Origin: [Leptolyngbya] sp. PCC 7376
GTDB taxonomy: Bacteria > Cyanobacteriota > Cyanobacteriia > Cyanobacteriales > MRBY01
NCBI RefSeq assembly: GCF_000316605.1
Contig: NC_019683.1
Coordinates: forward strand, 2,092,036-2,156,035
Reading direction: 5' to 3'
Length of the DNA: 64,000 nucleotides
Each line of letters opens with the position of its first letter. The stretch's first letter is position 1. Both the position numbers and the translations under genes were made by a program. A model generated the notes under the pieces. It was not told the origin of the DNA. It made no database searches and saw only the letters and a list, made by a program, of their open reading frames with translations. Positions 1-2,129 of this stretch are shown here, piece by piece.

Positions 1-292
1 AAGTAAGACAGGGTGATCTGCTGGATCAACTTCTAGTTCTTTGAAAGCGTACTCGAGCAGTTTCTCGTAATCATCCCAATTGGTGACAATGCCATGCTCA
101 TTAGGATATTTGAGGGTAAGAATGCCACGTTTACTTTGCGCTTCGTCGCCGACATAATAGTCTTTTTGTCCCATGCCCACCATTACACCTTGGTGGCGAG
201 GTCTGCCGACAATTGCTGGAAAAGTTTCTCGGGGAGCCTCCTCTCCTGCGAAGCCAACTTTTACTATGCCCGAACCAATATCAATGACAATA

Positions 293-1329
293 TAGCAATT
301 TCTAGTCGAGTGAGGTGCAATAGCAGCAATGTGTAAACCAGCATCGAATATCATCAAGGGTAATCTTGGAAAAAGCTACCTCAATTGCCTTGTCTAGAGC
401 TAGATAAGTTCTTGCCCCGATACTTTTCAAGGTACTTTTCAACTTTGACCAGCAATTTTCAATGGGTGAAAAGTCTGGAGAATAGGGAGGAAGGTAAATC
501 AACTTAGCTCCCACGGCCTCAATCATTGTGCGTACTGACTCTCCTAAATGAATCGAACAGTTATCCATCACCACACATGCTCCCGCCCATAAGTTTGGTA
601 TTAACTTCTGGCTGATGAATGCTTCAAAGGTTAATCCATCCGTACTCCCCAGCAGATGATAATTAGCGACCATTCCCTTGAAGCCTAATGCTCCAATCAA
701 AGAAACATTCTTGCCTCGTTTACTGGATTTCGGACTATAAGCTCGTTTCCCTTTCTCAGAACGTGCCCTCAGTCTTGTCATGGCTAAGTTCACGCCCGAT
801 TCATCGATAAAAATCAAGTTTTTCGCTAGAGTCGCTTGCATTTTCTGCCAAAAATCATATCTGGCTTGTTGCACTCGTTTTGTCGCCTTAAGGTCTGGAT
901 AGAATGTTTTTTTGAGGCTATATCCCATTCTTCTTAAGGTGCGATGCATGGTGCTATTGGCCACACGGAGACCAGTGCGTTTCTCCATCTCATCACATAG
1001 TTCCGCTAGCGTCGCATCGTTTTTCTTGGTGAGCAACTGGCGCAATATTGTTTGATGCTCTTCGTTTAATTTGGGAGGTGTTTGTTGGCTCGTTTTTTCG
1101 GAGCAATCGACCCTGTCAGTCGTTTTTGGTCGAGGAGCTTTTGTACAAAACTTTTCGCCACTCCAAATTGTCGGGCAAGACTACTTTGACTCACACCACC
1201 CCTTTCGTAGGCATCCACTATTTTCTGTCTTAAGTCTAATGAGTAGGCTTTCGGCAAGATGCTACTTTCTTCCTCACCAGTCAACTCACCTATACTACTT
1301 CATACACCTTGCTAGGCTGAAATTTGCTG
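293..1329 (-). mobile_element. IS630-family element inserted in the actin gene
   Basis: A 1,037-bp element with TA at both borders (291-292 and 1330-1331), the usual IS630/Tc1-mariner target duplication. The ends are imperfect inverted repeats: TAGCAATTTCTAG on the left, CAGCAAATTTCAG on the right read inward. The transposase fills the inside. The clean target duplication suggests a recent, simple insertion. Confidence 0.88.
302..1284 (-). CDS. IS630-family transposase, probably made by -1 frameshifting
   Basis: Two overlapping frames together make a DDE transposase. The first (1284-1066) is a helix-turn-helix N-terminus ([17 protein letters not shown]...SLARQFGVA). The second (to 302) carries the catalytic domain with [15 protein letters not shown] and [13 protein letters not shown], the D-D-E set of IS630. 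An A-AAA-AAC slippery run sits at 1092-1098 in the first frame; a -1 shift there joins the two into one protein of about 325 residues. Programmed frameshifting is common in IS630 elements, so this copy may be active. Confidence 0.85.
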
Positions 1330-1350
1330 TAGGTGTTCCTGCCATCGTTT

Positions 1351-1356
1351 TCTCCT
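1351..1356 (-). promoter_or_regulatory. Ribosome binding site of the actin gene
   Basis: AGGAGA on the minus strand lies 5 bases before the ATG at 1345. It marks a bacterial translation start on the piece of the actin gene stranded beyond the IS630 element, and fixes the start codon. No clear -10/-35 pair was recognised in the 200 bases upstream. Confidence 0.75.
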
Positions 1357-1623
1357 AGTTTTATGCATTGAGGTAGATGTCTTATTACTTTTTTGTTCTT
1401 CTCAGTATTCTGCTCATGAGGCTGAAATATAGCGCCACAAATTTGAGGGCTTGCTTTTGAGCGTAAATAAGAGCTATCTGGAGTTAAAAAGCAAACACAT
1501 GGATTGTATGAGCAATATTCGGAGAAAATACTTCTATTCAAATGATTCTTTGTGAAATGTCATGAAAGTATATTTTGAAGAGCAGGTATTTGGTTATTGA
1601 GATAGCTGATATTTGAAACAATT

Positions 1624-2129
1624 TTATTTGGTACGTTTTTTACCGTGGCATTGTTTGAATTTTTTGCCGCTACCACACCAACAAGGTTCTTTTTTTGGGG
1701 TTTGATGGGGGGCAACATATCACCTTCGAGATAAAACCATTTACCTTTTTCCTTCACAAATTGCGATCGCTCATGGAGTTGGGCAACTTGGTTCCCTTCT
1801 TGGTACGCAGCGGCAAATTCAACAATGCCTGTTTTATCTTCGGGTTGACCAGCTTCAATTGTCACAATGGTTAGACCCAACCACGTCACATTATTGGCTG
1901 TCGCTGTAATTTGACGGCGGCTATTCATTGCCCGCTTAGTCGGATGGTGGGTATTAACTAAATAGTCAATATTCTTGAGGCAATAGGCTGTGTAGCGCGA
2001 TCGCATTAATTTCTCGGCAGTGGGTGCGGGAAGTTGCCCCTGAAGATAAACGCCACAGCATTGCGCTAATAAGTTTTCACTACCGCAAGGGCAAGGTAAA
2101 GACGGGAGGCGATCGCCAGAAATAAGCAC
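1624..2129 (-). pseudogene. YchJ-like SEC-C motif protein, frameshifted near its end
   Basis: The N-terminus has a SEC-C zinc motif (CPCGS...CC) followed by the YchJ/UPF0225 core (KLMRSRYTAYC, HHPTKR). The in-frame product loses the expected second SEC-C motif. In the next frame, just after a run of seven A on the coding strand (1690-1696), the sequence reads EPCWCGSGKKFKQCHGKK and stops at 1624. A one-base slip in the homopolymer therefore splits the gene; uncorrected, translation runs on to 1560 with an unrelated tail. This could be a true mutation, phase variation or a sequencing error. The family is thought to bind zinc; its function is unknown. Confidence 0.85.

Follow-up and report, generated by a model that had tools for sequence, protein, structure and literature searches.

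The left edge of the window, the 64,000-nucleotide stretch of the Leptolyngbya sp. PCC 7376 genome that was analysed (G000:C1:2092036-2156035; the genome is a single contig of 5,125,950 bases, 5.13 Mb), carries the 5′ part of a eukaryote-type actin gene, and a beta-thymosin gene follows that actin just outside the window. Our preferred reading, to which we give a probability of about 0.7, is that the locus is, or was until an insertion sequence entered it, a two-gene bacterial operon of actin followed by beta-thymosin whose source was a eukaryote and most likely an animal, and that later moved between bacteria of different phyla and went on evolving. Most likely, one thymosin occupies the barbed-face cleft of one actin and would keep it monomeric, so that actin could be put in store, presented or used while polymerisation stays under control. 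An IS630 copy has displaced the first actin codons in PCC 7376; the thymosin gene is intact.

Table 1. Features of the actin-thymosin locus of PCC 7376 (window positions, or G000:C1 and L004 coordinates where so marked)
Feature	Position	Strand	Basis
Actin, 5′ part (residues IVIDIGSG...HPVLL)	1..292	-	Pfam and PDB matches, reading of the frame
Actin, remainder, left of the window	G000:C1:2091223-2092035 = L004:3188-4000	-	
Beta-thymosin gene, 48 residues, left of the window	L004:2980-3126 = G000:C1:2091015-2091161	-	
Present open frame, 389 codons, the first ~21 out of the IS630 end; TTG at 357, ATG at 354	1..357	-	
Left TA of target duplication	291..292	.	Read by eye; limits within a few bases of three other copies
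IS630-family insertion sequence, ~1.04 kb, transposase on the actin strand	about 293..1329	-	
Transposase, C-terminal frame (DDE_3)	302..1045	-	Open reading frame and Pfam
Transposase, N-terminal frame (IS630 helix-turn-helix)	1066..1284	-	Open reading frame and Pfam
Right TA of target duplication	1330..1331	.	Read by eye
Severed first actin codons, start codon at 1343-1345	1332..1345	-	Read by eye
AGGAGA, Shine-Dalgarno-like site of the original actin start, 5 nt upstream of the ATG	1351..1356	-	Read by eye

The first 297 positions of the window, read on the minus strand, encode 99 actin-like residues (Pfam PF00022, E 3.6e-28) whose translation matches animal actins of the PDB with one gap (E 2e-44). 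A eukaryotic contaminant or chimeric assembly left of position 1 had been raised in the earlier note; the contig continues there and completes the actin frame, which is free of stops to L004:3188 and has 367 of its codons outside the insert. Compared with PF00022, the full protein scores 474.6 bits (cut-off 27, E 2.7e-142, residues 22-389), the full-length match of a conventional actin, and it aligns nearly without gaps to Actin-5C, ACTB and other animal actins. Over aligned columns the protein is 89.1% identical to Drosophila Actin-5C, 88.3% to ACTB, 87.6% to Acanthamoeba actin, 84.5% to maize actin and 66.6% to the actin of Microcystis LEGE 91341; a YANT stretch is common to the PCC 7376 protein and the animal references and absent from the amoeba and maize references. 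The only candidate for a second actin in the genome was one weak match, taken as chance (E 0.11). These matches confirm the near-eukaryotic actin fragment that the earlier note had described in a cyanobacterium, and its horizontal acquisition is supported. The further claim that the protein stands far above any bacterial actin homologue fails: a pattern scan of an 84,980-species collection returned 21 further actin loci, 16 of which (L006-L021), all in records labelled bacterial, match the PCC 7376 actin from residue 2 to 363 or beyond, with 44-91% identity in the best segment. A few of these 16 may be eukaryotic contamination.

The IS630 element interrupts actin codon 5, on a TA. Its transposase (DDE_3, E 1.4e-34; HTH_Tnp_IS630 over cut-off) and the TA on both sides are those of an IS630/Tc1-type insertion sequence, as had been read from the letters, and with the element and one TA removed the actin flanks join in one frame by eye; the bacterial ribosome site ascribed to the gene is also there beyond the insert, at a normal distance from the start codon. 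In the PCC 7376 genome the element has 34 matches, at least 30 of them near full length and at 99-100% identity, the actin copy included (a lower bound, 40 of 53 candidates having been scored), and its limits agree within a few bases with the three genomic copies compared. Because so many copies are nearly identical, the insertion into actin is probably recent.

The earlier note took the gene to be knocked out, and a dead actin gene, its expression stopped by the insertion and the locus now decaying in PCC 7376, is an explanation that we place just short of an even chance. The actin start and its Shine-Dalgarno site are severed, and inspection by eye revealed no good ribosome site or clear Shine-Dalgarno sequence ahead of the starts, the ATG included, within the IS end. 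A second IS-broken bacterial actin, that of genome G497 (L055:4026-5516), is likewise truncated, to 174 codons, and lies beside a transposase that looks to be of IS630 type by eye. Against decay, the remaining 367 codons contain neither stop nor frameshift, the actin frame continues without a stop into the IS end, on the strand of the transposase, thymosin has kept its Shine-Dalgarno site and frame, and a simple pattern scan of L004 2200-6200 found no terminator-like site on the minus strand. A knock-out is therefore not supported, and since TTG and ATG starts lie in frame within the IS end, a fusion of actin with that end, or expression of actin driven by the IS, is possible. Promoter-like and terminator-like sites at the locus were not above those of shuffled sequences.

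An empty sister site could not be demonstrated: the gene on the YchJ side occurs in five of five congeners and the transglutaminase gene on the thymosin side in three of five, and in those three the two genes are far apart or on different contigs. In the gene at window 1560-2129, which we take to be YchJ-like, the last ~42 residues are unmatched in the five congeners. Matching stops at residue 147 in every one of the five, which makes a rearrangement junction near window 1690 probable.

The gene behind actin was identified by its match to PF01290 (59.8 bits, cut-off 24.8, E 2.1e-16) and by PDB matches to thymosin beta-9 and beta-4 chains (E 2e-11). It starts 61 nt past the actin stop, its ATG is preceded by GAGG, and its frame is intact. 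Beta-thymosins are an animal family, and in animals thymosin holds G-actin. Like thymosin beta-4 and beta-9, the PCC 7376 protein has a single domain with LKKTET, which we take to be the defining motif of beta-thymosin, and it is 65% identical to beta-4 over 37 residues; unlike them, it belongs to a bacterial gene pair and has a Shine-Dalgarno site. Other bacterial thymosins have LKNTET, LKKIET or LQKAQT at this motif. A profilin, which had been suggested as the neighbour, was not borne out, the partner being beta-thymosin: PF00235 had no match in the PCC 7376 genome at E 0.01, and the locus is thus not a pair of the ActM-PfnM type. The earlier reading therefore stands in its acquired actin and its IS630 insertion on TA; its knock-out is not supported, and its profilin neighbour is a thymosin instead. 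Beginning at the thymosin stop, a 260 bp element with 22-nt inverted ends (L004:2721-2980) resembles a small non-coding mobile element and leaves the thymosin frame intact.

A thymosin gene also directly follows actin in 3 of the 21 further loci, those of the cyanobacterium UBA2566, Alteromonadaceae NORP12 and Thiobius zoothamnicola (all MAGs), and likewise in G463, which belongs to the same genus as UBA2566 but is a different species. The pair is thus found in PCC 7376, in a second cyanobacterial genus (two species) and in two gammaproteobacterial MAGs, NORP12 and Thiobius; in G476, also of the UBA2566 genus, the contig ends about 150 nt past actin. Across these four lineages the spacing between the genes is 61-71 nt, and in all four an SD-like site lies ahead of thymosin. 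Thymosin was searched in 388 class and 388 order genomes (overlapping sets) and in 14 actin carriers, the full species scan being for actin. PF01290 was over cut-off in 3 of these 14 other actin-bearing genomes versus 0 of 14 control genomes. In the Cyanobacteriales draw, 12 of 388 genomes had a eukaryote-type actin and 3 of 388 a thymosin, all three within those 12, an overlap with a probability by hand of 220/9,660,036 = 2e-5 if the genes were independent (two of the three genomes are congeners); the class draw had thymosin in one of 388, PCC 7376 itself. The strain has kin among Synechococcus strains, according to one study (PMC6256058). Actin was found in one of six genomes of its genus and is therefore dispensable; it was found in 3 of 10 genomes of the UBA2566 family. 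Microcystis LEGE 91341 and Planktothrix PCC 11201 have a profilin gene near actin, and a profilin search of 15 genomes gave two further matches (G399 over cut-off, G394 below) that are suspected to be eukaryotic contamination. Thymosin remnants in the other actin loci were limited to weak matches (best E 0.47). As to a possible vector, IMG/VR (pattern scan), 72,556 plasmids and 50,697 phages yielded no relative of the actin, and thymosin was not found in plasmids.

Between UBA2566 and G463, a 6.7 kb stretch with the pair and its flanks is 97% identical. The actin dN/dS was 0.077 for UBA2566/G463 (11 synonymous and 3 nonsynonymous changes) and 0.079 for UBA2566/G476, values which indicate that actin is under purifying selection inside this genus; for wider actin pairs dS is saturated or nearly so. 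In Thiobius the actin is flanked by fusA and by a frame read by eye as gltX. The NORP12 pair is followed by a Y1_Tnp transposase (L006:2588-3553) whose C-terminus resembles DnaA, a match below the Pfam cut-off, and, by eye, preceded by a fragment of a similar protein. Defence-type genes, picked by eye without a control, lie within a few kb of bacterial actins and comprise a ThsB TIR with PDC-M50A, GmrSD and type IIG restriction (L011:11222-12161, L054:386-2084, L056:6039-10487).

How the actin might be used was judged from residue lists that we take to define the cleft, the barbed face, the pointed face and the nucleotide site. Not one of the 17 residues of the WH2/thymosin cleft is changed in any of the five thymosin-linked actins, including that of Thiobius, which is 73% identical overall. 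The cleft is not a sharp marker of thymosin linkage, since L010, a row without thymosin, keeps it unchanged too and four more such rows differ at a single position. The D-loop is a contact needed by filaments. It is present in the PCC 7376 actin, which keeps 94% of the pointed-face residues and has 19 of 21 nucleotide-site positions as in ACTB (with I for M and F for Y at the other two). The actin might accordingly build filaments as a cytoskeleton, its polymerisation buffered by thymosin, much as ActM is paired with profilin in Microcystis; ActM polymerises (PMC3254629). We find this plausible while leaning against it, for two carriers of the pair, NORP12 and Thiobius, have lost D-loop residues. 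As deposited, the Dictyostelium reference 1c0f is missing part of its D-loop, and its 100/78 in the face comparison results from this.

Several relatives are without the D-loop or whole subdomains and retain the barbed face. In Thiosymbion and Aureispira the barbed face is kept and the genomes had no thymosin or profilin match, which suggests a partner outside the searched set, with a eukaryotic host or neighbour as one possibility. From this a more speculative proposal can be framed, one that we think rather unlikely as a whole: the animal-derived actin and beta-thymosin would be a bacterial mobile pair spread across phyla with a role other than filaments, selection favouring a monomer that presents its barbed face, with thymosin or profilin as its storage chaperone. 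From the pointed face, carriers would repeatedly have shed the D-loop and subdomains 2 and 4, and from the nucleotide site even some of its residues, while the barbed face stayed; its partner might be the actin system of eukaryotes that live with these bacteria, and PCC 7376 would represent an early, still fully actin-like stage. Among altered actins, that of a Crocinitomix MAG (L016:5911-7101, 58% to ACTB) differs at 18 of 21 nucleotide-site residues, and its start resembles by eye a secretion signal, MKKSFQILLVFCFCFFAATLNAQ; it is possibly exported. Mini-actins of 257-265 residues, which lack the greater part of subdomains 2 and 4, occur at L023:5977-6747, L058:4686-5480 and L059:4998-5792, the first (Planktothrix) near a profilin.

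The history of the pair was approached with trees. The main tree, of 11 bacterial and 8 eukaryotic rows (two eukaryotic references entered by hand), placed the actins of Cyanobacteriota, Pseudomonadota, Bacteroidota and Myxococcota on one side of a branch with support 95/88, a value due in part to the choice of rows: L054, L015, L016, L009, L010, L021, L023, L056, L058 and L059 were omitted after a weaker tree was known. The alignments also omit L014, L017, L020, L022 and L024-L026 (split, partial, short or with unclear frames) and L055. The support varies with the rows sampled: with more and longer rows the bacterial/eukaryotic split was weak (76/91), and Crocinitomix, L009 and L010 fell beside maize. 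With the rows of the main tree, grouping with metazoa was rejected for the PCC 7376 actin (p-AU 0.017) and for UBA2566 (p 0.0023). A tree with ActM had been proposed as a check; rooted with ARP1, it gave a seven-row bacterial core (91/92) with Microcystis (ActM), Microcoleus and G435 outside, and their joining the core was not rejected (p 0.155). Three residues missing from the six eukaryotic references of the residue comparison recur in the bacterial rows, I176 in 12 of 12, P323 in 11 of 12 and A265 in 9 of 12; A260T, another candidate bacterial signature, was dropped, T being found in cardiac actin also. With few references, we infer as the best reading one entry for the core actins and then spread between bacteria. 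On this reading the actin-thymosin linkage would be ancestral, and some lines would since have lost it. That a eukaryote recently passed the gene straight to PCC 7376 is unlikely, because its actin has relatives in other bacteria and other phyla. An animal donor fits the thymosin family, the slight lead in identity of the animal actins and the YANT stretch, and is not proven.

It is improbable, in our estimate, that each bacterium instead took its actin, with or without thymosin, from its own eukaryotic neighbours and that the pairing was selected repeatedly as a monomer buffer. The names of some carriers do cite eukaryotic partners (ectosymbiont of Catanema, zoothamnicola and corallicola, from record titles), some rows stand beside maize in the larger tree, and the thymosin-linked actins as one clade were rejected (p 0.0025), which calls for losses or for pairing more than once. 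Separate transfers could also look like one if the donor lineage was not sampled. Separate acquisition is at odds with a gene order that four lineages share at almost the same spacing, with the three shared bacterial residues and with the rejected placement of the UBA2566 pair with metazoa. Eukaryotic contamination or an assembly artefact as the source of the pair can be set aside as highly improbable: some scan loci do look like contamination, and the match in L014 is split in two pieces, but the PCC 7376 actin lies on a single contig with bacterial flanks, SD sites, a frame broken by the IS alone and a GC3 of 0.383 against a locus GC of 0.425, and the pair recurs in unrelated assemblies.

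The nearest known system is that of Microcystis aeruginosa PCC 7806, where ActM occurs with PfnM; according to their description, ActM is confined to one Microcystis strain, and no prokaryotic homologue of a eukaryotic actin-binding protein other than PfnM was known as of 2012 (PMC3254629). Like PCC 7376, that cyanobacterium has a eukaryote-type actin adjoining a gene for an actin-binding protein, and in LEGE 91341 (L015) profilin begins about 290 nt past actin. In PCC 7376, by contrast, the partner is beta-thymosin, the pair spans Cyanobacteria and Gammaproteobacteria, and the actin is 67% identical to that of LEGE 91341 versus 88-89% to animal actins. No bacterial beta-thymosin was found among the matches listed in the open-licence PMC literature. 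Asgard actin genes are regarded as ancestral. Asgard archaea resemble PCC 7376 in having a prokaryotic, eukaryote-like actin with a regulator, there profilin and gelsolin (PMC9433394). Unlike the Asgard proteins, the PCC 7376 actin stands close to the actins of living eukaryotes, and acquisition is its best reading. Among bacterial homologues, MreB, ParM and FtsA belong to the actin superfamily. Such homologues have about 14% identity to actin (PMC3254629), whereas the PCC 7376 actin has 84-89% to eukaryotic actins.

The presence of the pair in unrelated bacteria also suggests that a piece of the animal cytoskeleton is now a travelling bacterial module, and this would be a clear case of animal cytoskeletal genes turned into a bacterial gene pair. 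Actin is regarded as frozen because so many partners bind it. Bacterial actins with one animal partner, seen in two or more phyla and accompanied by relatives that have changed to different degrees, offer a natural experiment on which parts of actin persist once almost all partners are gone. Since Leptolyngbya sp. PCC 7376 is in culture, the use that a bacterium makes of a eukaryotic actin becomes directly testable.
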